Positions 25,997-42,456 of a DNA stretch of 64,000 bases are shown in pieces. Position numbers and translations under genes: made by a program. Source of the stretch: an uncultured Draconibacterium sp. (GTDB taxonomy: Bacteria; Bacteroidota; Bacteroidia; Bacteroidales; Prolixibacteraceae). The notes below the pieces were generated by a model. The model was not told the DNA's origin, did no database searches, and was given only the letters and a program-made list of their open reading frames with translations. Location of the stretch: assembly GCF_963677155.1 (NCBI RefSeq), contig NZ_OY781884.1, positions 3,778,501-3,842,500 on the forward strand, read 5' to 3'. Positions within the stretch are counted from its first letter, which is position 1; each line of letters opens with the position of its first letter.

Positions 25997-27328
25997 TCAG
26001 CAAGTGATTTTTGCCGATTCTTCTAATCCCCATTCTTCTTGCATGGCAATTCCAAGATTCTCCAGTTCGGTTAAAATGGGCTCGTAAATGGTTTTGGAAA
26101 CGGGTATATGAACACCTTTGTCGTTAATCTTCCCATCCAGAATCATTTTTACTGCAATAGCAGCTGGCAGTGCAACTGTCCTTGAAATAGAAGTATTTTC
26201 TTTGGTCGCAAAATCCAGCAGATGCAATTTCACAACTTCAGTGCTTCCGTCGGCATTTTCTACCAAAAACGAGTGGAGCATAATCACCATATCTCGCGCA
26301 CCTTCGGGCAGCATCATTTTTTTCAGCATCAAATCAGTTATCAAATCGAAATTTGATCCTTCTTCCATTGATGGCATGTAACCACTAAAAAGCCCTAACC
26401 ATTCCATGGCTAAAATTGCAGGACTGTCGATTGGAAGCCGAAGTTGTTCTGCAGCCTTTTCTTTAATGTTGGCCGGATAAACTTCAAGCTGACGGGCCAT
26501 TATTTTTTTGTAGGTTTTTCCCGCAAAACTTTGTTTATCGGATGTAAATAGTCCAAGCGTTTTCATGGCATCCATAATTTCGCACCAATCGGGGTAGCGG
26601 AAAGTACCTCGATACATGGTGGTAACCTCTTTTAATCTGTAAATGTCGATGTAGGCCAGCGAGTTGCGATTCGGGTAAACCTCCATTTCCCCAACTTCCG
26701 GGAATTCAATTGTTAATGGATTTTTTAAAAGGTTTTCTGTTGGTAGCTCAACAATTTTACCGTCTTTTAAATACTTGGCACCATTATTTCCGGCCATGAT
26801 CACTCCTTTGGGCGACCACGAAAATTTGTATTTAAACGGATTGTTAGTTTCTTCGGGTGCTGCCAGTGCACCGCATAACGAGTAAAATTCTTTTACCTTT
26901 CCACCTTTTTCCTGCACCTTGTCTATAATTCGCATGGCAGTCATGTGGTCAAAACCCGGATCAACTCCAATTTCATTCAGAATAATAATTCCCGCTTCTT
27001 TAGCTGTTGCATCCAACGCTTTCATTTCTTCTGAAACATACGATGTGGTAACCATGTTTTTTTTGTGTTTGATACACAATTTGGCAACCGTTACATGATG
27101 CGCATAAGGTAGCAAGCTCACAGTTAAATCGTGACTTGCAACTAACTTATCCAATTGATCAATGTCGTCGATGGTCCATTGCACCGCTTTACCGTTTGCA
27201 CGGTTCCTTATTAATTTCTCGGCTTTTGTAAGTGTGCGGCTGGCAATGGTTAATTTTATATTGTTGTCAAGAATATAATCGGCAAGTGGTTTGGCTACCA
27301 TTCCGGCGCCAAGTAATAATACTTTCAT
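25997..27328 (-). CDS. saccharopine reductase-like dehydrogenase (saccharopine to aminoadipate semialdehyde)
   Basis: This 443-residue protein has an N-terminal Rossmann motif (VLLLGAGMVAKPLADY) and the saccharopine dehydrogenase C-terminal domain. Signatures are TTSYVSEEMKALD, EIGVDPGFDHMTA, NPFKYKFSWSPKG and GTFRYPDWC. It resembles fungal Lys9 and the C-terminal half of plant and animal LKR/SDH. The likely reaction is oxidative cleavage of saccharopine to glutamate and 2-aminoadipate 6-semialdehyde, the substrate of the ALDH7 enzyme at 33433. It is divergent from the KamA-pca operon, with 531 bases between them. The lysine-ketoglutarate reductase partner is not in the window. Confidence 0.85.
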   Translation of the reverse strand: MKVLLLGAGMVAKPLADYILDNNIKLTIASRTLTKAEKLIRNRANGKAVQWTIDDIDQLDKLVASHDLTVSLLPYAHHVTVAKLCIKHKKNMVTTSYVSEEMKALDATAKEAGIIILNEIGVDPGFDHMTAMRIIDKVQEKGGKVKEFYSLCGALAAPEETNNPFKYKFSWSPKGVIMAGNNGAKYLKDGKIVELPTENLLKNPLTIEFPEVGEMEVYPNRNSLAYIDIYRLKEVTTMYRGTFRYPDWCEIMDAMKTLGLFTSDKQSFAGKTYKKIMARQLEVYPANIKEKAAEQLRLPIDSPAILAMEWLGLFSGYMPSMEEGSNFDLITDLMLKKMMLPEGARDMVIMLHSFLVENADGSTEVVKLHLLDFATKENTSISRTVALPAAIAVKMILDGKINDKGVHIPVSKTIYEPILTELENLGIAMQEEWGLEESAKITC

Positions 27329-27859
27329 TTTTCTGTCTTCTGTTTGTTTTCAATTAATCAAACGAAATTATTAGAAATTCGTTCGATAATTTCTTTCCTG
27401 ATTTTTATTCGAATTTATTGTCCTGATCAATAGAAATAAATTTTTAGTTGATGCAATAAACTACTTTTTTTCAGCCCCTTAAGTTGGTGAAAATTTATTT
27501 AACAAAAGATGATATCTTCCATTTTTGTAAATTATGGTAAAAATCATGGGCTTCTGGCATAAAATTTTATAAATTGTGCACATGGTACAATCGTATTCAT
27601 GTCCTGTATTCTTCTATCAAGGCATGCCAGAGTGCCTCGATGATACGGTTTCACATTAGCTGCAACCGCAGTTATTTTTATTCCATAGCTCTTATTGACG
27701 CTTGTCAATACCTTATGTCTCAATTTCTTTCAAATCGGTGTCGATAGGACGGATTCGGAATGAAGCGCAACAGCCAGACTGCATGGTTCGTGTATAGCTG
27801 TGTATTGGCAATTGAGTGTTTTTCAGACTTTTCAGTTATAAATTTTAATACTAAACGAG
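27329..27859. promoter_or_regulatory. 531-base divergent region upstream of the lysine/aminoadipate operon
   Basis: No coding content is visible. Several inverted repeats occur: GAAATTAT/ATAATTTC (27364-27371, 27386-27393), TATCAAGGCA/TGCCTCGATGATA (27615-27645), CTGC-AACC-GCAG near 27660, and TATTGAC-GCTT-GTCAATA (27693-27710). The right-hand half may be a structured leader of the plus-strand operon, and the first repeat is a candidate operator. It does not match the lysine riboswitch as I know it. Confidence 0.4.
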
Positions 27860-29428
27860 ATGAATAGTACGAAAAAATCATTAACCGTTGATGAAATGAT
27901 GCGTGCTTACGATTTTATGCCCGAAACAATACAAACCATTAATAACGAGAACCTTTTGCCTCTGGGTTTAATTCGGCGTTTACAAAAATGTTATCCTCAG
28001 TGTTCCCAATTTTCAAAGCAAAAAGAACCTCTTTTTAAAGGGAAAACACATTACACTGGATTAATTGGTTTTCGCGAAATTTTGCATGTGCTGAAGAAGA
28101 ATGGAATTGAGTTGGGAGCTATCGGCGAACGCGAATTTTTCCTGGAAGTGTACCGTTTTATGGCTACCAAACACATCCTGAATACCATTGATTGGAGCAA
28201 CTATAAAAATGATCCGAATTATTGCCTGGTATTTCCGCAGCCGGATATGATTAACAAAACAGATGTGCAAAAATACCTGGATGCCGACAGCGGAGAAGAA
28301 CGGAGGAAAGTTGTTGAAGCTTACCAGTTAAAAACCAATCCGCACGACGGGAAGCAGAAACTGAACAAACCGTTCTTTTATAACGATGAGGGACAACTGG
28401 AAATCCTGGAAGGGAGCCAGCACAAATACCCGCCTATAAAACTGATTCTGGATGCCGGAACACAAAACTGTTTTGCTTTCTGCACTTATTGTTTCCGGCA
28501 TGCACAGGTTCGTGGCGACGAAGATATGTTTGTGCAACGCGATATTAGTCAGGTGCACAACTACCTAAAAAAGCATAAAGAAGTTTCCGACATTTTAATT
28601 ACCGGAGGCGATGCAGGTTATATTTCTTACAAGCGTTTGAAAGAGTACCTCACTCCAATTTTGGAAGATGACGAGTTGTTGCACATTCGTACGCTGCGAA
28701 TCGGTTCACGGGCTATCACTTTTCATCCTGAGCATTTGCTTACCGATCAGTTTAAGGATATACTGGAACTACTGAAAACTACTGTTGAAAATGGTATTCA
28801 GGTGGTTTGGATGTCACACACATCAACACCGCGGGAAATATTAAATCCAGGGGCTATTGCTGCCATTCAGCGTCTGAAAAAATATGGCATAAAGGTGAAG
28901 AGCCAAAGTCCGATTATGAACACCATAAGTTTGTATAGGGATGGAAATGGAAAGGTTGATGTTGATCGGTCGGCACAAAACTGGATTGATTTGGGCAATA
29001 TTTTGGCGATGGTTGGAATTGGTTTCCATTCAATGTATTGCGCACGGCCAACCGGCGAGCATCATCATTTTACAGCTCCTTTAGCTGACGTAACAAAAGT
29101 ATTCAATAAAGTGTATCGTAGTTTGGCGTCGATAAACCGTCCGTCGCGCTATATCACTATGACTTCTTCTGCCGGGAAAACTTCGTTAATGGGAACAACT
29201 GAGATTGATGGAGAAAAAGTGTTTGTGCTCAAATTCAACGAAGCCCGGAACATGGAGTGGATGGACCGCGTATATTTTGCAGAGTACGATGAGCAGGAGA
29301 ATACCATAGAAAAGTTAAAGCCCTATAAGGCCGACAAGTATTTTTACGAAGATGAACTGGAAGAGATTGAAGGCCGGTTGGAAGAAGCATTAATAAAGGA
29401 ATCGTTAAAAACGGTTAGTCATGATTAA
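27860..29428 (+). CDS. KamA-like radical SAM 2,3-aminomutase, probably acting on an acidic amino acid
   Basis: This 522-residue member of the lysine 2,3-aminomutase group uses a [4Fe-4S] cluster, SAM and PLP. The cluster cysteines are Cys204, Cys208 and Cys211 (CFAFCTYC), with Arg213 where LAM Arg134 binds the alpha-carboxylate. The PLP lysine is Lys440 (SSAGK). Without gaps back from this lysine, LAM Asp293 and Asp330, which hold the lysine side-chain amine, correspond to Arg396 and Thr433. Glutamate 2,3-aminomutase has Lys and Asn there. With PcaIJF-type neighbours, I infer conversion of 2-aminoadipate to 3-aminoadipate. The stop overlaps pcaI by 8 bases. Confidence 0.8.
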   Translation: MNSTKKSLTVDEMMRAYDFMPETIQTINNENLLPLGLIRRLQKCYPQCSQFSKQKEPLFKGKTHYTGLIGFREILHVLKKNGIELGAIGEREFFLEVYRFMATKHILNTIDWSNYKNDPNYCLVFPQPDMINKTDVQKYLDADSGEERRKVVEAYQLKTNPHDGKQKLNKPFFYNDEGQLEILEGSQHKYPPIKLILDAGTQNCFAFCTYCFRHAQVRGDEDMFVQRDISQVHNYLKKHKEVSDILITGGDAGYISYKRLKEYLTPILEDDELLHIRTLRIGSRAITFHPEHLLTDQFKDILELLKTTVENGIQVVWMSHTSTPREILNPGAIAAIQRLKKYGIKVKSQSPIMNTISLYRDGNGKVDVDRSAQNWIDLGNILAMVGIGFHSMYCARPTGEHHHFTAPLADVTKVFNKVYRSLASINRPSRYITMTSSAGKTSLMGTTEIDGEKVFVLKFNEARNMEWMDRVYFAEYDEQENTIEKLKPYKADKYFYEDELEEIEGRLEEALIKESLKTVSHD

Positions 29429-30140
29429 CAAGATCGTAAATTCGGCAAAAGAAGCGGTTGCCGGCATTTTCGACGGAGCAATCGTAATGATCAGTGGTTT
29501 TGGTGAAGCCGGTAGTCCGGTGGAATTGATTCATGCATTGGTCGATCAGGGAGCAAAAGATCTGACAGTGGTGAGTAACAATGCCGGAAGCGGACATGTT
29601 GGTTTGGCAGCGCTTATCGAAAACCGGCAGGTTAAAAAAATTCTTTGTTCCTTTCCACGTACTGCTATTTCTGTTGTTTTTCCCGAGTTATACCGGGCCG
29701 GAGAAATTGAGCTGGAATTAGTGCCGCAGGGAACACTGGCTGAACGCATTCGTGCAGGCGGGGCAGGAGTTCCGGCATTTTATACGCCTACAACGGTAAA
29801 TACTCCTTTGGCAGAAGGAAAAGAAATACGCGAATTTGATGGGAAACAATATGTTATGGAAAAAGCCATTCATGCTGATTTTGCTTTAGTAAAATGTGCT
29901 GCTGCCGATAAATACGGGAACCTCATTTACAACAAAACAGCCCGCAACTTTGGGCCGGTTATGTGTATGGCTGCTAAAACAACAATCGTACAGGCCAAAC
30001 AGGTGGTTGAGCTTGGTGCCATTGATCCTGAATATGTAGTAACACCGGGAATTTTTGTCCATCGGGTCGTGGAGATTTGTAATCCTGCCGATGAATCAAA
30101 ACTGGTTGCCGAAAATGTAAAATACCATGGAATCAGATAA
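29421..30140 (+). CDS. 3-oxoadipate CoA-transferase subunit A (PcaI-like)
   Basis: This 239-residue alpha subunit of a 3-oxoacid CoA-transferase matches PcaI of the beta-ketoadipate pathway closely. Shared features are SNNAGSGHVGLAAL, KKILCSFPR, the YRAGEIELELVPQGTLAERI stretch, ARNFGPVMCMAAKTTI and VTPGIFVHRVV. PcaIJ moves CoA from succinyl-CoA to 3-oxoadipate. No aromatic ring-cleavage genes are nearby, so 3-oxoadipate must come from elsewhere, probably from the aminomutase and aminotransferase of this operon. It overlaps both neighbours, which implies translational coupling. Confidence 0.88.
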   Translation: MINKIVNSAKEAVAGIFDGAIVMISGFGEAGSPVELIHALVDQGAKDLTVVSNNAGSGHVGLAALIENRQVKKILCSFPRTAISVVFPELYRAGEIELELVPQGTLAERIRAGGAGVPAFYTPTTVNTPLAEGKEIREFDGKQYVMEKAIHADFALVKCAAADKYGNLIYNKTARNFGPVMCMAAKTTIVQAKQVVELGAIDPEYVVTPGIFVHRVVEICNPADESKLVAENVKYHGIR

Positions 30141-30780
30141 TAAAACTATAGGTTGGAGCACTGGCGAAATGGCGCAAAAAGTTGCCATGGATATTCATGA
30201 TGGTGCGTATGTAAACCTTGGGATTGGCATTCCTGAAATGGTTGCCGGATTTATACCCGAAGGGCGAGAGGTGATCTATCATACCGAAAATGGTTTGCTG
30301 GGAATGGGAACGGTTGCTGAAGTTGGTAGTGAAGATCCGGAGTTGGTGAATGCCGGGAAAAAATATGTTACAGCCATTCCCGGAGCGGCTTTTTTTGATC
30401 ATGCCGATAGTTTTGCTATGATACGTGGCGGGCACATCGATATTTGTGTGCTGGGAGCTTATCAGGTTTCGGAAGAAGGTGATTTGGCCAACTGGTCTAC
30501 CGGTAATTCAAACGATATTCCCGCAGTGGGCGGCGCAATGGATTTGGTAGCCGGCGTGAAAACCATTTTTGTGATAACAAAACACACGACCAAAACCGGT
30601 GAGTCCAAAATTGTAAAACAGTGTACTTACCCTTTAACGGGGAAAAATGTAGTGAATCGTATCTACACCAATTACGCGGTAATTGATGTCAGACATGAGC
30701 GACTTTATGTGCGCGAACTGGCACCGGGAGTAAGTTTCGAGTTTTTGCAAAAACATACCGAAGCAACATTAAATCAATAA
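30127..30780 (+). CDS. 3-oxoadipate CoA-transferase subunit B (PcaJ-like)
   Basis: This 217-residue beta subunit carries the catalytic glutamate in the motif YHTENGLLGMG, which forms the glutamyl-CoA thioester. Other family motifs are GAYVNLGIGIPEMVA, GGHIDICVLGAYQVS, ANWSTGN and GGAMDLVAG. It overlaps the alpha subunit gene by 14 bases. The substrate assignment rests on the PcaI-like partner and the PcaF-like thiolase two genes on. Acetoacetate CoA-transferase is the main alternative. Confidence 0.87.
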   Translation: MESDNKTIGWSTGEMAQKVAMDIHDGAYVNLGIGIPEMVAGFIPEGREVIYHTENGLLGMGTVAEVGSEDPELVNAGKKYVTAIPGAAFFDHADSFAMIRGGHIDICVLGAYQVSEEGDLANWSTGNSNDIPAVGGAMDLVAGVKTIFVITKHTTKTGESKIVKQCTYPLTGKNVVNRIYTNYAVIDVRHERLYVRELAPGVSFEFLQKHTEATLNQ

Positions 30781-30786
30781 AAGAAG

Positions 30787-32121
30787 ATGGCTAAAAAAGA
30801 AAATAGCGAAGAAATATATAATAAGGCGCGCCAGGTAATAAGCGGCGGTGTAAGCCGCAATACTGTTTTCCGGATGCCTTATCCGAATTATGCCAACAGT
30901 GCTTCGGGCTGTTACATTACCGATATTGACGGTACAGTTCGTACTGATTTTGCCAATAATATGGCGGCATTAATTCATGGTCATTCATTCCCCCCAATTA
31001 TCGATGCGGTTATCGAACAACTAAAAAAAGGAACTGCTTATACGCTTGCTTCCGAAATTGAAGTTGCTTCTGCCACTCACCTGATCGAACGCGTGCAGAG
31101 TTTTGAACGTATTCGTTTTATGAATTCAGGTACCGAAGCTGTTATGGCTATGATAAAGGCGTCGAGGGCATTTACTGGCCGACCAAAAATTGCAAAAGCT
31201 GAGGGTGCTTATCATGGAACTTATGATTTTGCCGAGGTCAGTCAAATGGCAAATCCGTCGAATTGGGGAAATGAAGATCGGCCCAGCAGTGTTGCGCTTG
31301 CTCACGGAACACCGCCAGGCGTAACAAAAGACGTGGTCATTTATCCGTATAATAACATTGAACGAACGCTGAACATTTTGGATAAACATGCGGCAGATAT
31401 TGCCTGTGTTATTGTCGACCCTGTTCCTCACCGGGTAGGTTTGGTTCCCGGAAACCACGATTTTATAGAAGCACTTTACAGCTGGACCCGCAAAAACGAG
31501 GCCTTGCTGGTTTTCGATGAGGTGGTGACTTTTCGTGTGAATTACGGAGGAGCACAGGAAAATTATAGCGTGAAACCGGACCTGACTTCGCTTGGAAAGA
31601 TAATTGGCGGTGGATTCCCGGTTGGCGCAGTTGCCGGAAGAGCCGATGTAATGCAGGTTTTCGATCCGCATGAAAAAAATCTTCTGTTACCGTATTCGGG
31701 AACATTTTCTGCTAACCCGATAACCATGACTGCCGGTTATCAGGCCATGAAATACTATGATGCAGAAGCGGTGAAGCAATTAAACCGGCTTGCGGATGTA
31801 GCGGTGAAACAAATTCGCGAAGCCATAAAACTTGCGAATGTTCCGGTTTCTGTTACTGGCGCTGGTTCAATGTTTCGGATGCACCTTCGCCCTGATTCTC
31901 CAACAACATACCGCGAAGCTTACCTCGACAAAGAAGGTAAAAAGCTCGTAAATGAATTGCTGGATTACATGTATTACAAAGAAAATATGTTGATGATCAA
32001 CACTTTTTCGTGTATGCTTTCAACGGTAATGACACAAAAGGAGATCGATAAGTTAACCGAAGGATTGCACAGGACTTTCAAAGCGCTAAAACCAAAGATT
32101 GAAAAACTAAACAAATTATAA
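30787..32121 (+). CDS. class III aminotransferase of the beta-amino acid / GSA-aminomutase-like group
   Basis: This 444-residue PLP enzyme of fold type I resembles glutamate-1-semialdehyde aminomutase and the beta-transaminases that act on beta-phenylalanine. The PLP-binding lysine is Lys271 (LGKIIGGGFPVGA). The cofactor aspartate is Asp244 (VFDEVVTFR), and NSGTEA is at 113-118. An arginine-bearing N-terminus (GGVSRNTVFRMPYP) could bind a carboxylate, as in beta-transaminases. It starts 6 bases after pcaJ. I infer 3-aminoadipate to 3-oxoadipate with 2-oxoglutarate as acceptor. It is not the heme-pathway HemL, given its context. Confidence 0.82.
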   Translation: MAKKENSEEIYNKARQVISGGVSRNTVFRMPYPNYANSASGCYITDIDGTVRTDFANNMAALIHGHSFPPIIDAVIEQLKKGTAYTLASEIEVASATHLIERVQSFERIRFMNSGTEAVMAMIKASRAFTGRPKIAKAEGAYHGTYDFAEVSQMANPSNWGNEDRPSSVALAHGTPPGVTKDVVIYPYNNIERTLNILDKHAADIACVIVDPVPHRVGLVPGNHDFIEALYSWTRKNEALLVFDEVVTFRVNYGGAQENYSVKPDLTSLGKIIGGGFPVGAVAGRADVMQVFDPHEKNLLLPYSGTFSANPITMTAGYQAMKYYDAEAVKQLNRLADVAVKQIREAIKLANVPVSVTGAGSMFRMHLRPDSPTTYREAYLDKEGKKLVNELLDYMYYKENMLMINTFSCMLSTVMTQKEIDKLTEGLHRTFKALKPKIEKLNKL

Positions 32122-32123
32122 CT

Positions 32124-33326
32124 ATGAATGACGTTTTTATTTGTGATGCAATACGCACGCCTGTTGGAAAATATGGAGGTTCGTTGTCTGCTATCAGGGC
32201 TGATGATCTGGCGGCCATTCCCATAAAAAATTTGCTGGATCGCAACGATCAGATCGATCCGGCGGCTTTCGATGATGTAATTATAGGATGTGCCAACCAG
32301 GCTGGCGAAGACAACCGAAACATTGCGCGAATGGCTTTACTTTTAGCAGGAATGCCAGAGTCGGTTCCGGGAGTAACGGTCAATCGTTTGTGTTCTTCGG
32401 GGATGGAAGCGATTGGAATTGCTGCGCGGGCGATAAAAGCTGGCGAGGCAGAGCTGATGATTGCCGGCGGAGCTGAAAATATGTCGCGATCTCCATTGGT
32501 GATGCCAAAAGCTACGCAGGCTTTTTCCCGAAATGCAGAAATTTATGACTCTACCATCGGCTGGCGTTTTGTGAACGAAAAGTTTCAGGAGAAATATGGA
32601 ACTGATCCACTTATTTGCACTGCAGAAAATCTGGCCGATGAATTTAAGATCAGTCGCGAGGATCAGGATCGGTTTGCACATAATAGTCAGCTAAAAACAG
32701 TTGAAGCCCAAAAAAATGGAGCTTTAGCAAAGGAAATAATTCCGGTTTCTATACCACAACGAAAAGGAGATCCTGTGATTTTTGAAAAGGATGAACATCC
32801 GAGACTGACATCGCTGGAAAAACTGGTGTCATTAAATCCTGTTTATGGTCCGGGAACAACAGTAACTGCAGGCAATGCCTCGGGAATTAACGATGGTGCA
32901 GCGGCTGTAATTGTAGCTTCGGAAGCTGCAGTTAAGAAGTTCAATCTAACTCCGAAGGCCAGAATTCTGGGGACTCAGGCAGCAGGTGTGCCTCCGCGCA
33001 CCATGGGAATCGGACCGGTACCGGCTACTAATAAACTTTTAAAGCGGTTAGGAATGACACTTGACCAGATGGATATCATTGAATTAAACGAAGCATTTGC
33101 TGCTCAATCGCTGGCTTGCATTCGTGAGTTTGGGATGACAGACGATGATCCCCGTTTGAATCCACTTGGAGGAGCAATTGCACTCGGACACCCACTGGGT
33201 ATGTCGGGAGCTCGTTTGGTTACAACAGCAATTTATCAGCTGCAAAATTCAAACTCAAAATGCGCGCTTTGTACTATGTGTGTTGGCGTTGGTCAGGGAC
33301 TTTCAATGATATTGGAAAAGGTGTAA
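32124..33326 (+). CDS. 3-oxoadipyl-CoA thiolase (PcaF-like)
   Basis: This 400-residue thiolase has nucleophile Cys90 (NRLCSSGM), and later GHPLGMSGAR and CVGVGQG. The N-terminal half reads GCANQAGEDNRNIARMALLL and has the TIGWRF motif, both as in 3-oxoadipyl-CoA thiolases rather than short-chain acetoacetyl-CoA thiolases. It would cleave 3-oxoadipyl-CoA into succinyl-CoA and acetyl-CoA, the last step of the proposed route. It begins 2 bases after the aminotransferase. A hairpin repeat 25 bases downstream may separate it from the ALDH gene. Confidence 0.9.
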   Translation: MNDVFICDAIRTPVGKYGGSLSAIRADDLAAIPIKNLLDRNDQIDPAAFDDVIIGCANQAGEDNRNIARMALLLAGMPESVPGVTVNRLCSSGMEAIGIAARAIKAGEAELMIAGGAENMSRSPLVMPKATQAFSRNAEIYDSTIGWRFVNEKFQEKYGTDPLICTAENLADEFKISREDQDRFAHNSQLKTVEAQKNGALAKEIIPVSIPQRKGDPVIFEKDEHPRLTSLEKLVSLNPVYGPGTTVTAGNASGINDGAAAVIVASEAAVKKFNLTPKARILGTQAAGVPPRTMGIGPVPATNKLLKRLGMTLDQMDIIELNEAFAAQSLACIREFGMTDDDPRLNPLGGAIALGHPLGMSGARLVTTAIYQLQNSNSKCALCTMCVGVGQGLSMILEKV

Positions 33327-33350
33327 CAATATATTTGGCATTAGCTGGGT

Positions 33351-33375
33351 GGCATTTCCCCTTGAGGGAAATGCC
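33351..33375. repeat. perfect hairpin between the thiolase and ALDH7 genes
   Basis: GGCATTTCCC and GGGAAATGCC are perfect 10-base arms around CTTGA. GATAGGCAAAGGGG follows. It has the look of a dispersed intergenic palindrome and could act as a transcript-processing or termination hairpin. Confidence 0.55.
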
Positions 33376-33432
33376 GATAGGCAAAGGGGTAATGATAATT
33401 TAAAACAAAGAAAATACTAAAAAATAAACAAG

Positions 33433-34974
33433 ATGAAAATTGACATTTCAAAAGAATTAGAACAGTTAGGTATTAGTGACGTAAATAATGGTATTTGCAC
33501 CGGAACCGAATGGAGAACAACATCCGGTGCAGTTGTTGAGTCGTTTTCTCCGTCGGACGGGGAATTGATTGCATCTGTAAATCAGGCGACTGCAGCCGAC
33601 TACCACGAAGTGGTGGAAAAAGCAAAAGATGCTTTTAAGGTGTGGCGCATGGTGCCGGCTCCAAAGCGCGGCGAGATTGTGCGTCAGATTGGTTTGGAAC
33701 TTCGGAAGTATAAGGAACCGCTCGGAAAGCTTGTTTCGTACGAAATGGGTAAAATCTATCAGGAAGGCCTGGGCGAGGTGCAGGAGATGATTGATATCTG
33801 CGATTTTGCCGTTGGCCAGTCGCGCCAACTTTATGGTTTTACTATGCACTCCGAACGCGAAAAACACCGGATGTACGACCAATATCATCCGTTGGGAATT
33901 GTTGGAGTAGTTTCAGCCTTTAACTTCCCGGTAGCTGTTTGGGCCTGGAATGCAATGATCGCAATGGTGGCAGGCGATGTAGTAATTTGGAAACCATCAT
34001 CAAAAGTATTTTTATGTGCCATTGCCGTTCACAATATTGTTGCCAAAGTTTTAAAAGAAAATGATGTTCCTGAAGGTGTTTTGAATTTGGTAGCAGCAGG
34101 TTCACGCGAATTGGGCGACGAGTTTTTTAGCGACAAAAATATTCCGCTGGTGTCGTTTACCGGCTCAACAAAAATTGGTAAAAAGGTTGGTGGCCTTGTC
34201 GGTCAGCGTTTGGGAAAAACAATTCTGGAACTTGGCGGAAACAATGCCATAATAATTACGCCAGAGGCCGATCTTGAAATGGCACTTCGGGCGGTTGTTT
34301 TTGGCGCAGTTGGTACTTGCGGGCAGCGTTGTACTTCTACCCGCCGCATTATCGTTCACGATTCGGTTTACGAAGATTTCAAAGACCGCTTGGTGGCTGT
34401 TTATGAAAATTTACCCATCGGTCATGCATTAGATGAAAAAACACTGGTTGGTCCGCTGGTTGATCATTGGGCGGTGGATACCTATTTGGCTGCCATTGAA
34501 AAGGTGAAGACACAGGGCGGAAAACTGTTGATTGGAGGAGAAGTATTGACTGGAGAAGGATATGAATCAGGATGCTTTGTAACGCCGAGTATCGCCGAGG
34601 TGGAGAATGATTACGATATTGTTCAGGACGAAACTTTTGCCCCATTGCTGTACATGATTCGTTATTCAGAATTTGATGAAGCGATTCGTTTACACAATGA
34701 TGTACCACAGGGATTATCATCGGCAATTTTTTCAACGCACATGTTGGAAACTGAGAAATTCTTGTCGCATGAAGGTTCGGATTGTGGAATTGCCAATGTA
34801 AATATTGGTACCTCAGGTGCCGAAATTGGTGGTGCTTTTGGTGGTGAGAAAGAAACTGGTGGTGGTCGCGAGTCGGGTTCCGATGCCTGGAAAGCCTACA
34901 TGCGGCGCCAAACCAATACAATAAATTATAGTACAGAGCTTCCGTTGGCTCAAGGAATTGAGTTTAATGTGTGA
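33433..34974 (+). CDS. ALDH7-type L-2-aminoadipate-6-semialdehyde (piperideine-6-carboxylate) dehydrogenase
   Basis: This 513-residue aldehyde dehydrogenase resembles ALDH7A1 (antiquitin) and bacterial AmaB. Catalytic residues are Cys300 in the typical GTCGQRCTSTRR motif and Glu266 in LELGGNN. SAFNFPVAVWAWN and the ALDH7-like tail GGAFGGEKETGGGRESGSDAWKAYMRR are also present. It would oxidise 2-aminoadipate semialdehyde with NAD+ to 2-aminoadipate. Placed between the aminomutase operon and a saccharopine reductase-like gene, it ties the cluster to lysine breakdown. Confidence 0.9.
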   Translation: MKIDISKELEQLGISDVNNGICTGTEWRTTSGAVVESFSPSDGELIASVNQATAADYHEVVEKAKDAFKVWRMVPAPKRGEIVRQIGLELRKYKEPLGKLVSYEMGKIYQEGLGEVQEMIDICDFAVGQSRQLYGFTMHSEREKHRMYDQYHPLGIVGVVSAFNFPVAVWAWNAMIAMVAGDVVIWKPSSKVFLCAIAVHNIVAKVLKENDVPEGVLNLVAAGSRELGDEFFSDKNIPLVSFTGSTKIGKKVGGLVGQRLGKTILELGGNNAIIITPEADLEMALRAVVFGAVGTCGQRCTSTRRIIVHDSVYEDFKDRLVAVYENLPIGHALDEKTLVGPLVDHWAVDTYLAAIEKVKTQGGKLLIGGEVLTGEGYESGCFVTPSIAEVENDYDIVQDETFAPLLYMIRYSEFDEAIRLHNDVPQGLSSAIFSTHMLETEKFLSHEGSDCGIANVNIGTSGAEIGGAFGGEKETGGGRESGSDAWKAYMRRQTNTINYSTELPLAQGIEFNV

Positions 34975-35054
34975 AATAAATCGAAGATGTAATGCGATGC
35001 ATTATTTCACTGGGTGAATGTAAATTGACGAACGAAGCCCCGAAATTGGAAGAT

Positions 35055-35087
35055 ATTCATCGGATGACTTCAAGTCATCCGATGAAT
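35055..35087. repeat. long perfect palindrome upstream of the second saccharopine reductase-like gene
   Basis: ATTCATCGGATGACTT (35055-35070) and AAGTCATCCGATGAAT (35072-35087) are perfect 16-base arms around a single C. It lies in the 147-base gap after the ALDH7 gene and may be a terminator-like hairpin or a dispersed palindrome. Confidence 0.6.
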
Positions 35088-35121
35088 AAATAACAGGGTT
35101 CGTAGCTAATAGCTAAAAAGT

Positions 35122-36474
35122 ATGAAAAACATATTAATTTTTGGAGCCGGTAGGTCGAGTATATTTTTGCTCACCTACCTGGCTGAAAATGCATCAAAAT
35201 ACCACTGGCACATAAAAGTTGTAGATGCAGAAGAAAGCGATCTTGTTAAAGCCTTAAAACTGTCATTCTCAATAATAAATGTGAGGGATGAATTTGCCCG
35301 CGATCAGGAGGTTCGTAAAGCCGATCTGGTAATATCCATGTTGCCTGCACGCTTTCATAAATTGGTCATGCAATCTTGTCTGAAATTCTCGAAAAGTATG
35401 TTTACCGCTTCTTACGAAAGTAAAGAAATACAGCAAGTTGAGGATGACGTAAAAAGCAACGGTCTGTTGTTTTTGAACGAGTGCGGTTTAGATCCCGGCC
35501 TCGATCACATGTCAGCCATGCGTGTGATCAACCAGATTAAAAAGGAAGGTCACCAGTTGGAGGCTTTTGAATCGTTTACCGGCGGTTTGGTTGCACCCGA
35601 ATCGGATGATAATCCGTGGCATTACAAGTTTAGCTGGAATCCGCGAAATGTAGTTTTGGCAGGGCAGGGAGGCCCGGCACAATTTATTCAGAAGGGGAAG
35701 GTGAAATACATTTCTTACAACCGTTTATTCCGCCGGACTGAGTTGATAAAAGTTGATGATTACGGCTGGTTTGAAGGTTATGCCAACCGCGACTCCTTGA
35801 GTTATGTTGAGAAATATGGTTTGCAGGAAGTACCTACTGTTTTTCGGGGAACTTTACGTCGTCCTGGTTTTTGCAAGGCGTGGAATGTATTTGTTCAGTT
35901 GGGCGCTACCAGCGATGAACATTACATTGATAATGTGGAAGACATGACTTACCGTGAGTTTATCAATTCTTTTCTATACTATCATCCGGCCGATACAATT
36001 GACTTGAAATTGTATCATTCTATGCAAATTCCTATGGATTCAGAGATCATCCCAAAGCTGGAGTGGCTGGGAATTTTTGATAATCGAAAAATAGGCTTAA
36101 AACGTGCTACTCCTGCCCAGGTGATGGAAAAGTTACTTTCGGAGAAATGGCAATTAATGCCCGATGATAAAGATATGATAGTGATGTGGCATAAGTTTGA
36201 ATACCTCGATCGCGACACGAGGGAGAAAGTGGAGAAGAATAGCTCGTTGGTGGTTATTGGCGAGTCGGGAGAGAAAACAGCCATGGCAAAAACGGTTGGT
36301 TTACCACTTGCAGTTGCAGCAAAATTGTTTTTAACCGGCCGACTAAATCAAATTGGTTGTTTAATTCCAACACTCCCCGATATTTATGAGCCAATTTTAA
36401 ATGAGCTGGAAAGTTTTGGTATCAAATTCAGAGAAATGGAGAAAAGCTTGGAAGGTCAGGAGAATATCAATTAA
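35122..36474 (+). CDS. second saccharopine reductase-like dehydrogenase
   Basis: This 450-residue protein is paralogous to the product of 25997-27328. It has an N-terminal NILIFGAGRSSIFLLTYL nucleotide-binding loop, TASYESKEIQQVEDD, the ECGLDPGLDHMSAMRVI signature, NPWHYKFSWNPRN and GTLRRPGFC. It could cleave saccharopine or act in the reverse direction. Two Lys9-like copies flanking one operon suggest different partners or directions. Lysine-forming activity cannot be excluded. The gap upstream contains a strong palindrome, so separate transcription is possible. Confidence 0.82.
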   Translation: MKNILIFGAGRSSIFLLTYLAENASKYHWHIKVVDAEESDLVKALKLSFSIINVRDEFARDQEVRKADLVISMLPARFHKLVMQSCLKFSKSMFTASYESKEIQQVEDDVKSNGLLFLNECGLDPGLDHMSAMRVINQIKKEGHQLEAFESFTGGLVAPESDDNPWHYKFSWNPRNVVLAGQGGPAQFIQKGKVKYISYNRLFRRTELIKVDDYGWFEGYANRDSLSYVEKYGLQEVPTVFRGTLRRPGFCKAWNVFVQLGATSDEHYIDNVEDMTYREFINSFLYYHPADTIDLKLYHSMQIPMDSEIIPKLEWLGIFDNRKIGLKRATPAQVMEKLLSEKWQLMPDDKDMIVMWHKFEYLDRDTREKVEKNSSLVVIGESGEKTAMAKTVGLPLAVAAKLFLTGRLNQIGCLIPTLPDIYEPILNELESFGIKFREMEKSLEGQENIN

Positions 36475-39770: not shown

Positions 39771-39973
39771 GTGTTTGGTAGTTCTTGCAAAGGCTAAATA
39801 GTCTGAATTCAGCCAGATGTTATAATTCCTCTTTTTTGTCTACTGAATTGTTAACGATCTTTAAACGACTTTTAAATATATCTTACTATTTAGATAGCTG
39901 ATAAATTGCTTGGGAGCATTGCTAATGTGGGGTTTTGGTTCTATTTTTAGGAGCAAAACTTAATTCTAAAGTC

Positions 39974-41185
39974 ATGATTCAAAAATGTTTAGTTCTTGTT
40001 TCTGCACTGATTTTCTCGGTAACCAGCTTATATGCTCAGGAGCCAACTGTTTGGCGGGGCCAAAATAACGGAATTTACCCGGAAACAGGCTTGCTTAAAG
40101 AGTGGCCGGCCAATGGTCCCGAAATTTTATGGACCGCAGAGGGATTGGGCGAAGGACATTCGTCGCCGGTATTTGCCAACGATAAAATCTACCTGTCGAC
40201 CATGATCGATGGTGAAGGTTTTATTTTCATTTTCTCTCAGGATGGTGAAATAATAAAAAAGGTTTCATATGGAACAGAATTCGCAGAAAGTTATCCTGGT
40301 GCCCGTTCTTCTGTCGTGGTTGATGGTGATTTAATGTACATCTATAGCGGTCTGGGAGTGTTGACTTGTATGGATTCAGAAAACGGCGAAGTAAAATGGC
40401 GCAAAAATGCTTTTACTGATTTCGATGGTGAAAATATACGTTGGGGAGTTACCGAAACTGTTCTTATTGATGGCGATGTAGTGTATTTAACTCCGGGCGG
40501 AAAGAAAAACAATATAGTGGCCTTGAACCGTTTTAATGGCGATCTGATCTGGACATCAGCCGGAAAAGGAGAATTGTCGGCTTACTGTACACCATTGCTG
40601 GTAGAACTTCCTGCGCGAAAATTACTGCTAACACATACTGCCGATCATATTATTGGTGTTGATGCCAAAACCGGACAGTTGCTGTGGGATTACCCGCATA
40701 AAAACCAGTGGAGCGTTCATCCGAATACGCCGCTTTTCTATAACGGCGATCTGTTTTGCTTTAGCGGCTATGGCAAAGGTGGAGTAAAACTTGATCTTAG
40801 CGAGGATGGCAGCAGTGTGACAAAACAGTGGGAAAACCCAGAGCTAGACAGTCGTATGGGAGGAATGGTTGTGGTTGACGGTTATCTTTATGGCTCAGGC
40901 GACAAAGGGCGCGAGTGGCGTTGCGTGAACTGGGAAACCGGCGAGGAAAAATACGCATCGAAAGACATTGCAAAAGGTGTTACCATTTATGCCGACGGCA
41001 TGTTATATTGCTACAGCGAACGTGGCGAACTGGCATTGGTTGAAGCTACACCCGAAGGCTTTAATATTGTAAGCCAAACAAAAGTTGAATTGGGAACAGC
41101 ACAACATTGGGCGCACCCGGTAATTAATAATGGACGCCTGTTTGTTCGCCATGGCGATGTGCTAATTGCCTACAAAATCAAATAA
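39974..41185 (+). CDS. exported PQQ-like beta-propeller protein, copy 1 of the redox cluster
   Basis: This 403-residue protein is read from ATG 39974, giving a clean signal peptide (LVSALIFSVTSLYAQ). Longer in-frame starts to 39935 spoil it. The mature part opens with VWRGQNNGIYPETGLLKEWP and consists of propeller blades with tryptophan-docking motifs (DSENGEVKWR, NRFNGDLIW, DAKTGQLLWDYP). It belongs to the BamB/PQQ-like superfamily. The active-site residues and adjacent-Cys disulfide of true quinoprotein dehydrogenases are not evident. It heads a long same-strand redox cluster and is a close paralogue of the next gene. Function unknown. Confidence 0.85.
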   Translation: MIQKCLVLVSALIFSVTSLYAQEPTVWRGQNNGIYPETGLLKEWPANGPEILWTAEGLGEGHSSPVFANDKIYLSTMIDGEGFIFIFSQDGEIIKKVSYGTEFAESYPGARSSVVVDGDLMYIYSGLGVLTCMDSENGEVKWRKNAFTDFDGENIRWGVTETVLIDGDVVYLTPGGKKNNIVALNRFNGDLIWTSAGKGELSAYCTPLLVELPARKLLLTHTADHIIGVDAKTGQLLWDYPHKNQWSVHPNTPLFYNGDLFCFSGYGKGGVKLDLSEDGSSVTKQWENPELDSRMGGMVVVDGYLYGSGDKGREWRCVNWETGEEKYASKDIAKGVTIYADGMLYCYSERGELALVEATPEGFNIVSQTKVELGTAQHWAHPVINNGRLFVRHGDVLIAYKIK

Positions 41186-41223
41186 GTTCCACCTGAATTT
41201 CTATTCAATTAAAATAAAAAACC

Positions 41224-42456
41224 ATGAAGATTGCACTAACACTATTAATTGCCGCATTTACGTTATCGTTAAGCGCCCAGGTTACACAGTGGCGCGGGCC
41301 AAACCGCGACGGGCATTTCCCCGAAACAGGCTTGCTAAAAGAATGGCCCGAAAAAGGCCCTGAATTACTGATGCAGGTTGAAAAAATAGGAAAAGGATAT
41401 TCGTCGGCAATTGCTGAAGGCGATATGATCTACACAACCGGAATGATTGATACCATGGATTATCTGACTGCGATAAATCCTGATGGTTCGTTTAAATACC
41501 AGGTGCCTTATGGCCGCTCGTGGACGAACTCGTTTCCCGATACTCGAAGTACACCGGTAATTGATAACGACCGGATATACGTACAAAGCGGAACCGGACA
41601 GGTTTCATGTATCAACAAAGGAAGCGGGGAAACCATTTGGGAAGTTAACGTTGACGAAAATTTTCATGGAGAATACCATATTTGGGGAAATTCTGAAACA
41701 GTTCTGATTTGCGACGATAAAGTAATCGTTTCGCCCGGAGGAAAAGAAACCAGCGTTGTGGCGCTAAATAAAATGACTGGCGAGAAAGTTTGGCAAACCG
41801 AGTCGCTTGGAGGGCCGAGAGCTTATGCGTCGGCAACTATTTACGAATGGAATGGTTTCCGTTATATTCTGGCGGTTATCGGTACTGATCTTATGGCAAT
41901 TGTTCCCGAAACCGGCGAGATAGCCTGGAGTTACAGGTATTGGAATCCTACTCATTGGGATCAGGACGGATTGATCTGGACGAATACGCCTGTTTTTAAA
42001 GACAATCGTATTTTTATTACCATGGGCTATGATTATCCGGCTGTTATGCTGGAAGTGGATTCAACAGGAACATCGGTAAGCGAAAAATTTGTTGATCATA
42101 CTTTTGATAATCACCACCACGGCGTAATTCTTACCGATGGTTATTTGTACGGCTCAAACTGGTTTGATAACAAACGGGGAAAATGGATTTGTATGAACTG
42201 GGATTCAGGCGAGATTAAATATGTAGCAGATTGGGACACAAAAGGTTCGGTGGTGATGGCCGACGGACTGCTTTACTGTTACAACGAACGTGGAAATGTT
42301 GGGTTGGTAAAACCCGATCCTGATGGTTTTGAAGTGATCAGCGAATTCAAAATCAGAGAAGGTGCCGGGCCGCATTGGGCGCATCCTTTTATCGCCAATG
42401 GTAAATTGTATATGCGCCACGGCGATGTGTTAATGGTGTACGATATTAAAGCTTAA
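41224..42456 (+). CDS. exported PQQ-like beta-propeller protein, copy 2
   Basis: This 410-residue protein has a signal peptide (IALTLLIAAFTLSLSAQ) and an N-terminal motif QWRGPNRDGHFPETGLLKEW shared almost word for word with the preceding protein, so the two arose by tandem duplication. Blade motifs are NKGSGETIWEV, NKMTGEKVWQT and PETGEIAWSY. It ends with GPHWAHPFIANGKLYMRHGD, also matched in copy 1. Location is periplasmic or extracellular. It may bind a partner or a cofactor; none can be assigned. The gap to copy 1 is 38 bases. Confidence 0.85.
   Translation: MKIALTLLIAAFTLSLSAQVTQWRGPNRDGHFPETGLLKEWPEKGPELLMQVEKIGKGYSSAIAEGDMIYTTGMIDTMDYLTAINPDGSFKYQVPYGRSWTNSFPDTRSTPVIDNDRIYVQSGTGQVSCINKGSGETIWEVNVDENFHGEYHIWGNSETVLICDDKVIVSPGGKETSVVALNKMTGEKVWQTESLGGPRAYASATIYEWNGFRYILAVIGTDLMAIVPETGEIAWSYRYWNPTHWDQDGLIWTNTPVFKDNRIFITMGYDYPAVMLEVDSTGTSVSEKFVDHTFDNHHHGVILTDGYLYGSNWFDNKRGKWICMNWDSGEIKYVADWDTKGSVVMADGLLYCYNERGNVGLVKPDPDGFEVISEFKIREGAGPHWAHPFIANGKLYMRHGDVLMVYDIKA

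Follow-up and report, generated by a model that had tools for sequence, protein, structure and literature searches.

The DNA analysed here, hereafter the window, is a stretch of 64,000 nucleotides (C1:3778501-3842500) from a genome of one contig (C1; 5.27 Mb, 99.99% complete) whose nearest named kin is Draconibacterium, several members of which have an aminomutase 91-92% identical to the one described below. We studied eight genes between 25997 and 36474, five of which form a tight block that begins with a KamA-like radical S-adenosylmethionine (SAM) aminomutase and that may encode the lower half of a route for lysine breakdown. All eight open reading frames are intact, and NCBIfam, Pfam and PDB matches confirmed both the positions and the family likenesses that an earlier note, made from the sequence alone, had assigned to them. 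Bit scores are given with the model cut-off where there is one.

25997..27328, minus strand: SDHa, a saccharopine dehydrogenase (L-glutamate-forming; saccharopine reductase) homologue; PF16653 257 bits, PF03435 90 bits; PDB 1e5l E 3.6e-89, human AASS 5l76 E 1e-80
27860..29428, plus strand: AM, a KamA-like radical SAM, pyridoxal phosphate (PLP)-type aminomutase, proposed to be a 2-aminoadipate 2,3-aminomutase; C204/C208/C211, K440, R213
29421..30140, plus strand: PcaI-like 3-oxoacid CoA-transferase subunit A; TIGR02429 361 bits vs cut-off 128.5 (subfamily model)
30127..30780, plus strand: PcaJ-like 3-oxoacid CoA-transferase subunit B; TIGR02428 302 bits vs cut-off 243.6 (subfamily model)
30787..32121, plus strand: AT, a HemL-like class III aminotransferase, proposed to act on 3-aminoadipate or 3-aminoadipyl-CoA; PF00202; PDB 6k8h E 7e-106, 4ao9 E 8e-55
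32124..33326, plus strand: PcaF, 3-oxoadipyl-CoA thiolase; TIGR02430 654/597, PRK09050 677/605; PDB 6pca, beta-ketoadipyl-CoA thiolase, E 2e-162
33433..34974, plus strand: ALDH7, alpha-aminoadipate semialdehyde / L-piperidine-6-carboxylate dehydrogenase; NF050084 802 bits vs 730; antiquitin 2jg7 E 2e-163, 4x0t E 2e-159
35122..36474, plus strand: SDHb, a second saccharopine dehydrogenase homologue; PF16653 260 bits; PDB 1e5l E 6e-67

The five-gene block (27860-33326) consists of AM, pcaI, pcaJ, AT and pcaF in tight order, is followed by ALDH7 and SDHb, and is divergent to SDHa. AM overlaps pcaI by 8 bp and pcaI overlaps pcaJ by 14 bp, and the gaps that follow measure 6, 2, 106 and 147 bp. Scans for promoters and terminators gave a signal no higher than in shuffled sequences.

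A search for AM across 84,980 species genomes revealed 153 relatives, and the best 80 of the 153 were kept as loci. The block count covers the 62 loci in which the sequence continues for over 4.4 kb beyond AM; the other 18 of the 80 are cut short by contig ends. The five genes were found on one strand and in the same order in 61 of these 62 loci, with a single exception (L121) that has no pcaF match, so the order is not due to chance; the arrangement, which the earlier note had suggested looking for across Bacteroidota, is kept in other phyla as well. The hosts represent about nine phyla or lineages, namely Bacteroidota, Ignavibacteriota, Chlorobiota, Balneolota, Acidobacteriota, Edwardsbacteria, Cloacimonadota, Desulfuromusa (Thermodesulfobacteriota) and Shewanella, according to labels taken from records and taxonomy that may err, as many hosts are metagenome bins; Draconibacterium, Maribellus and Shewanella are among those with names. 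A tree built from 34 AM proteins, 14 paralogues and a single lysine aminomutase places AM in one clade (support 100/99) inside which the phyla are intermingled, with 16 of the 46 inner forks poorly supported. This intermingling suggests that the cassette moved between lineages, and the simplest reading would be that the whole block was transferred together. Its distribution is patchy: an AM orthologue (at least 56% identity) occurs in 12 of 149 genomes of the window's order, and among 247 genomes of the class it was detected in the source genome only.

AM is KamA-like, yet distant from the curated members of that superfamily. It carries the signature of the KamA-type radical SAM/PLP superfamily, with the CxxxCxxC motif (C204, C208, C211) and the PLP lysine K440 present in 34/34 aligned AM proteins, and it matched the profile of 2a5h and L163, a Bacteroidota lysine aminomutase, with an hhalign E of 4e-19. 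Nevertheless, it scores under the KamA-family cut-off (TIGR00238, 84.4 bits vs 199.2), under the lysine-aminomutase-like model TIGR03822 (68 bits vs 396), and at 54-62 bits against the lysine, arginine and glutamate aminomutase and EpmB models, whose cut-offs are 369-650; among these are lysine 2,3-aminomutase (TIGR03820, 62.1 bits vs 525.4) and glutamate 2,3-aminomutase (TIGR04368, 59.7 bits vs 650). The alignments comprised 34 and 14 AM proteins, that is, the window's own together with 33 or 13 from the 80 loci, and residues were mapped by aligning the set of 14 (MAFFT) with L163, which had in turn been matched to 2a5h. In 2a5h numbering, R134 and K337, the latter being the PLP lysine, are kept in AM as R213 and K440 (34/34). 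D293 of lysine 2,3-aminomutase is replaced by R396 in 34/34 AM proteins in the MAFFT alignment, and the position of D330 (T433) holds threonine in 28 and serine in 6 of the 34. When hhalign was used, with gaps, D293 fell opposite A395 rather than R396 and T433 was recovered, so that both acids are gone either way. Asp293 and Asp330 of 2a5h stand at the positions that bind the epsilon-amine of lysine, and the clostridial glutamate 2,3-aminomutase replaces both aspartates too; a literature search on the roles of these two residues gave nothing relevant. The loss of both aspartates would fit a substrate with a terminal carboxylate on its side chain, for example 2-aminoadipate, and we infer that AM acts on this compound.

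Alongside AM we encountered another KamA-like family, with proteins of about 450 aa. It includes a protein of the source genome (L032, C1:1457524-1458705) and paralogues from further stretches (L007-L010, L013, L014, L017, L019, L020, L045, L047, L050, L055), and it has Arg and Ser in place of both lysine-binding aspartates in 14/14 sequences; its substrate is probably not lysine. In some plasmid records, proteins similarly distant from AM are labelled lysine 2,3-aminomutase.

Of the remaining genes of the block, pcaI and pcaJ match models (TIGR02429 and TIGR02428) that operate at subfamily level and cover 3-oxoadipate and acetoacetate-type CoA-transferases alike. PcaF passed two of the three 3-oxoadipyl-CoA thiolase cut-offs (TIGR02430 and PRK09050) and scored below the third (PRK08131, 505 vs 622); the TIGR02430 cut-off was also passed in the three relatives tested (L131, L128 and L122). 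AT scores under the HemL cut-off (333 bits vs 527.3), and among solved structures it matches 6k8h and the ForI aminotransferase best, whereas beta-phenylalanine aminotransferase (4ao9) ranks lower. An enzyme with a comparable task is Kat of Ca. Cloacamonas acidaminovorans, described as a HemL-like class III aminotransferase in a variant of lysine fermentation, active on 3-aminobutyryl-CoA and N-acetylcysteamine (NAC) thioesters and inactive on the free acids tested (PMC3149608). We located Kat in the genomes (L241) via its published primers. AT and Kat share just 27% identity over 393 positions, which identifies them as kin but as different enzymes, and Kat was thus rejected as an orthologue of AT. 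Among 124 Cloacimonadota genomes (E <= 1e-30), two encode an AT orthologue and 25 others a weaker HemL-like relative, Kat included, and none of the 124 encodes both at that threshold. A third Cloacimonadota genome with AM (G430, L124) gave no AT match, its AT being truncated by the end of the contig. Together with the gene order AM, CoA-transferase, AT, thiolase, the precedent of Kat raises the possibility that the CoA ester forms before transamination.

Lysine-entry genes lie next to the block in several lineages. In 11 loci, from Draconibacterium, Maribellus, other Prolixibacteraceae and one unclassified member of the Bacteroidota, the block is followed by ALDH7 and saccharopine reductase. 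In two Cloacimonadota loci, saccharopine reductase and lysine-ketoglutarate reductase (LKR) lie upstream of AM, with LKR 13 bp away in L131 and one gene off in L140. The Desulfuromusa block (L128) is flanked by ALDH7 (801.6 bits vs 730), an amino acid ATP-binding cassette (ABC) transporter and an ornithine-aminotransferase-like gene (360 vs 378), and a search of this genome (G433) for LKR gave no match. Between the transporter and AM of that locus lies a gene that looks diaminopimelate epimerase-like by eye (L128:7957-8913), and whose product could be an amino acid racemase. ALDH7 and LKR adjoin each other, away from the block, in three further AM genomes (L174, L176, L196), and L162, a stretch from a member of the family that lacks an AM orthologue, shows the same adjacency. 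As a separate observation, a helix-turn-helix protein of about 184 aa is encoded in nine of the 80 AM loci (L073, L074, L076, L094, L095, L110, L117, L120, L125); its gene directly precedes AM in L074 and L076 and lies one gene off in L073. The L094 copy has a PuuR-like best match, under the cut-off, and the protein is a possible regulator.

In the source genome, the LKR that the earlier note had suggested might lie elsewhere was found at C1:3238084-3239286, about 0.57 Mb from the block, and it matches the LKR domain of human AASS (E 1e-39). With the two SDH homologues of the window, the saccharopine lysine-degradation genes are thus present in this genome. LKR, ALDH7, lysine 6-aminotransferase and the tungsten aldehyde ferredoxin oxidoreductase family PF02730 were searched for in the genomes of 50 of the 80 loci (the loci outside this set being L063-L066, L068, L075, L078, L079, L081, L083, L088, L089, L091, L096, L098, L103, L104, L111, L113, L115, L118, L121, L123, L127, L130, L134, L136-L138 and L141); the set overlaps the sample of 149 genomes of the order (e.g., G415 and G389, with identical coordinates), and the two are not independent. 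LKR was detected in 36/50 AM genomes. Lysine 6-aminotransferase exceeded its cut-off in 7/50, comprising 5/14 without LKR vs 2/36 with LKR (two-sided p 0.014), and one or other of the two entry enzymes was present in 41/50. The occurrence of lysine 6-aminotransferase in some LKR-less genomes suggests that entry is modular, and in some lineages this enzyme looks to stand in for LKR and saccharopine reductase. Within the order, LKR was present in 11/12 genomes with AM vs 72/137 without AM (one-sided p 0.007), where three weak LKR matches (G250, G304, G387; E 4e-4 to 1e-5) were not counted, and the sole AM genome lacking LKR is 1.2 Mb in size and 70% complete. Two forms of LKR were observed in the order, one of about 400 aa that is 41-57% identical to the source genome's own copy, and one of about 435 aa (33-39%) that has a saccharopine reductase homologue adjoining or one gene off in 8/9 stretches.

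ALDH7 is less regular than LKR. It exceeded its cut-off in 27/50 AM genomes, and as a universal partner of the block it was rejected on this count. PF02730 was present in 29/50. Among the 36 genomes with LKR, PF02730 occurred in 14/14 without ALDH7 vs 11/22 with ALDH7 (two-sided p 0.002); over all 50 AM genomes the contrast is weak (17/23 without ALDH7 vs 12/27 with it, p 0.047). In five genomes (G397, G410, G424, G436, G441) the PF02730 gene lies about 5-8 kb from ALDH7. Tungsten aldehyde ferredoxin oxidoreductases are common in anaerobes, and we treat the PF02730 protein, as a lead only, as a candidate for the missing semialdehyde oxidation where ALDH7 is lacking. In these five genomes the oxidoreductase, of about 720 aa, sits near ALDH7 in a cluster (L208-L213 and other stretches) with ThiF-like, ModE-like, tungstate-uptake/binding-like and P5CDH-like genes, identified mostly by eye, which makes it a candidate alternative oxidase for semialdehydes of amino acids.

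Based on these observations, we propose that LKR and saccharopine reductase would convert lysine via saccharopine to alpha-aminoadipate semialdehyde, which ALDH7 would oxidize to 2-aminoadipate. AM would then move the amino group from C2 to C3, producing 3-aminoadipate, and the PcaIJ-type CoA-transferase together with AT would convert this to 3-oxoadipyl-CoA. The last two steps could occur in either order: free 3-aminoadipate may be transaminated first, as in the earlier note, or the CoA ester may be made first and then transaminated as by Kat, which suits the gene order. PcaF would finally cleave 3-oxoadipyl-CoA into succinyl-CoA and acetyl-CoA, and with succinyl-CoA as the CoA donor lysine would end as succinate and acetyl-CoA. 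In our judgement, the block likely represents the lower half of a route that breaks lysine down via 2-aminoadipate, 3-aminoadipate and 3-oxoadipyl-CoA; from AM onward we infer the substrates, the products and the direction of flux from the genes. The sequence of intermediates in the earlier note, from 2-aminoadipate over 3-aminoadipate to the level of 3-oxoadipate and on to PcaF, is supported by the cross-phylum block, by its linkage to LKR, saccharopine reductase and ALDH7, by lysine 6-aminotransferase in LKR-less genomes, by the aspartate loss, by the LKR of the source genome and by the lack of a PF00775 match there. The note's step from AT to 3-oxoadipate is supported as far as the oxidation level is concerned; the product may be the free acid or, if CoA is attached first as described for Kat (PMC3149608), the CoA ester.

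The same evidence was considered for other explanations. An alternative order through beta-lysine, also put forward in the earlier note, is disfavoured by the active-site residues of AM. If AM were a lysine 2,3-aminomutase, beta-lysine could instead undergo transamination at C3 and activation, giving 6-amino-3-oxohexanoyl-CoA, and the thiolase would split this into 4-aminobutyryl-CoA and acetyl-CoA. Membership of the KamA superfamily, plasmid records in which relatives of about 30% identity are so annotated, and the lysine genes near the block all agree with this. We consider it unlikely, given that the aspartates at both epsilon-amine positions are lost in 34/34 AM proteins, that AM reaches 62 bits against a 525-bit cut-off, that PcaF passes two of three 3-oxoadipyl-CoA thiolase cut-offs, and that linkage to LKR, saccharopine reductase and ALDH7 points to 2-aminoadipate rather than lysine as the substrate. 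A glutamate 2,3-aminomutase, producing 3-aminoglutarate that would pass via 3-oxoglutaryl-CoA to malonyl-CoA and acetyl-CoA, is a shade less probable again. The residue changes suit an acidic side chain, and both aspartates are replaced in that enzyme too; moreover, the four Shewanella genomes searched have no LKR, lysine 6-aminotransferase or ALDH7 over the cut-off, and in L122 the block is followed by a gene that reads as permease-like by eye. Against it stand the 59.7 bits of AM for a 650-bit cut-off, a thiolase that is PcaF-type and not a shorter-chain one, and the linkage to LKR, saccharopine reductase and ALDH7, which it leaves unexplained.

It is very unlikely that the block serves to produce or accumulate 3-aminoadipate, a beta-amino acid, as an osmolyte, or that it works toward the synthesis of lysine or 2-aminoadipate. 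Beta-lysine and beta-glutamate made by KamA-type enzymes are osmolytes in other organisms, but an osmolyte needs an aminomutase only, and a CoA-transferase and a thiolase in the same block (61/62 loci) argue for degradation. Least probable of all, and hardly to be entertained, is that PcaIJF serve aromatic ring cleavage with AM and AT as unrelated neighbours. PcaIJF do form the lower beta-ketoadipate pathway of aromatic degraders, and to our knowledge the intradiol routes to 3-oxoadipate (from catechol, protocatechuate and hydroxyquinol) all use the PF00775 family. A search for PF00775 intradiol dioxygenase in the source genome gave no match, while the same search was positive in 4/14 control genomes; ring cleavage, which the earlier note had named as a possible explanation for PcaIJF, thus does not explain them in this genome and was rejected there as the source of 3-oxoadipate. 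In addition, AM and AT are kept within the block in 61/62 loci.

Several observations weigh against degradation of lysine through 2-aminoadipate and 3-aminoadipate. The residue argument for AM rests on an alignment at about 26% identity, in which MAFFT and hhalign disagree over the partner of D293, and the substrate of AT cannot be read off its sequence. The LKR of the source genome is unlinked to the block, LKR is frequent in the order without AM as well (72/137), and the co-occurrence tests ignore kinship between genomes. ALDH7, over its cut-off in little more than half of the AM genomes, is not enriched with AM in the order (3/12 with AM vs 34/137 without). Neither LKR nor lysine 6-aminotransferase was detected in 9/50 AM genomes (G408, G409, G413, G429, G430, G433, G434, G437, G439); the nine include the Desulfuromusa genome (G433), which has an aminotransferase of its own, and four genomes of Shewanella, in which PF02730 gave no match and ALDH7 none over the cut-off either. 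Shewanella may obtain 2-aminoadipate via another enzyme, or may use the block on another substrate.

The route proposed here, through 2-aminoadipate and 3-aminoadipate, shares parts with several known systems. Its upstream homologues, LKR, saccharopine reductase and ALDH7, are those of the saccharopine (LKR/SDH) and ALDH7 route. The known fate of 2-aminoadipate leads via 2-oxoadipate and glutaryl-CoA to crotonyl-CoA, whereas here an aminomutase, a beta-transaminase and PcaF are proposed instead of the glutaryl-CoA branch. Classical lysine fermentation (KamA, KamDE, Kdd, Kce, Kal) likewise opens with a KamA-superfamily enzyme, but AM is without the lysine-binding aspartates. The lower beta-ketoadipate pathway (PcaIJ, PcaF) contributes a homologous CoA-transferase and thiolase, although its substrate comes from ring cleavage and would come from an amino acid here. 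Glutamate 2,3-aminomutase resembles AM in its superfamily, in an acidic substrate (proposed for AM) and in the replacement of both aspartates, which applies to the clostridial enzyme; it differs in the model score of AM and in an operon context that is C6 here and not C5. The Kat variant combines a HemL-like class III beta-transaminase with an Ato CoA-transferase and a thiolase (PMC3149608), the transaminase itself being the distant relative of AT described above. Our literature search, mainly of open-access papers and partly by titles and the starts of abstracts, in which the comma-printed '2,3-aminomutase' may escape, returned, among the matches listed, no description of a route via 3-aminoadipate and an aminomutase; under the names of 3-aminoadipate, titles in the open literature concerned meteorite and secondary-metabolite precursor topics only. 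The enzyme families are known; neither the reaction nor the route proposed here turned up in the literature searched, which does not prove their absence in print. Elsewhere in the window, outside this finding, two tandem related genes of 410-416 aa at 39935-42456 look PQQ (pyrroloquinoline quinone)-type beta-propeller-like by eye.

A broader version of this proposal would describe a mobile five-gene cassette of about nine phyla, with a radical SAM 2-aminoadipate 2,3-aminomutase, transamination at the level of the CoA ester, and a modular entry by LKR/saccharopine reductase or lysine 6-aminotransferase followed by ALDH7 or, in anaerobes, by the tungsten aldehyde:ferredoxin oxidoreductase; we find the case for and against this whole evenly balanced. 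The pathway predicts 3-aminoadipate as a metabolite detectable by mass spectrometry. If it is correct, lysine would be degraded straight to succinyl-CoA and acetyl-CoA without glutaryl-CoA, crotonyl-CoA or the B12-dependent 5,6-aminomutase, and the KamA superfamily would gain a new reaction. Genes of bacteria from sediments and digesters, for which lysine 2,3-aminomutase and glutamate-1-semialdehyde aminomutase are the closest models, would also receive a function, and models of how protein is broken down in anaerobic communities would be corrected.

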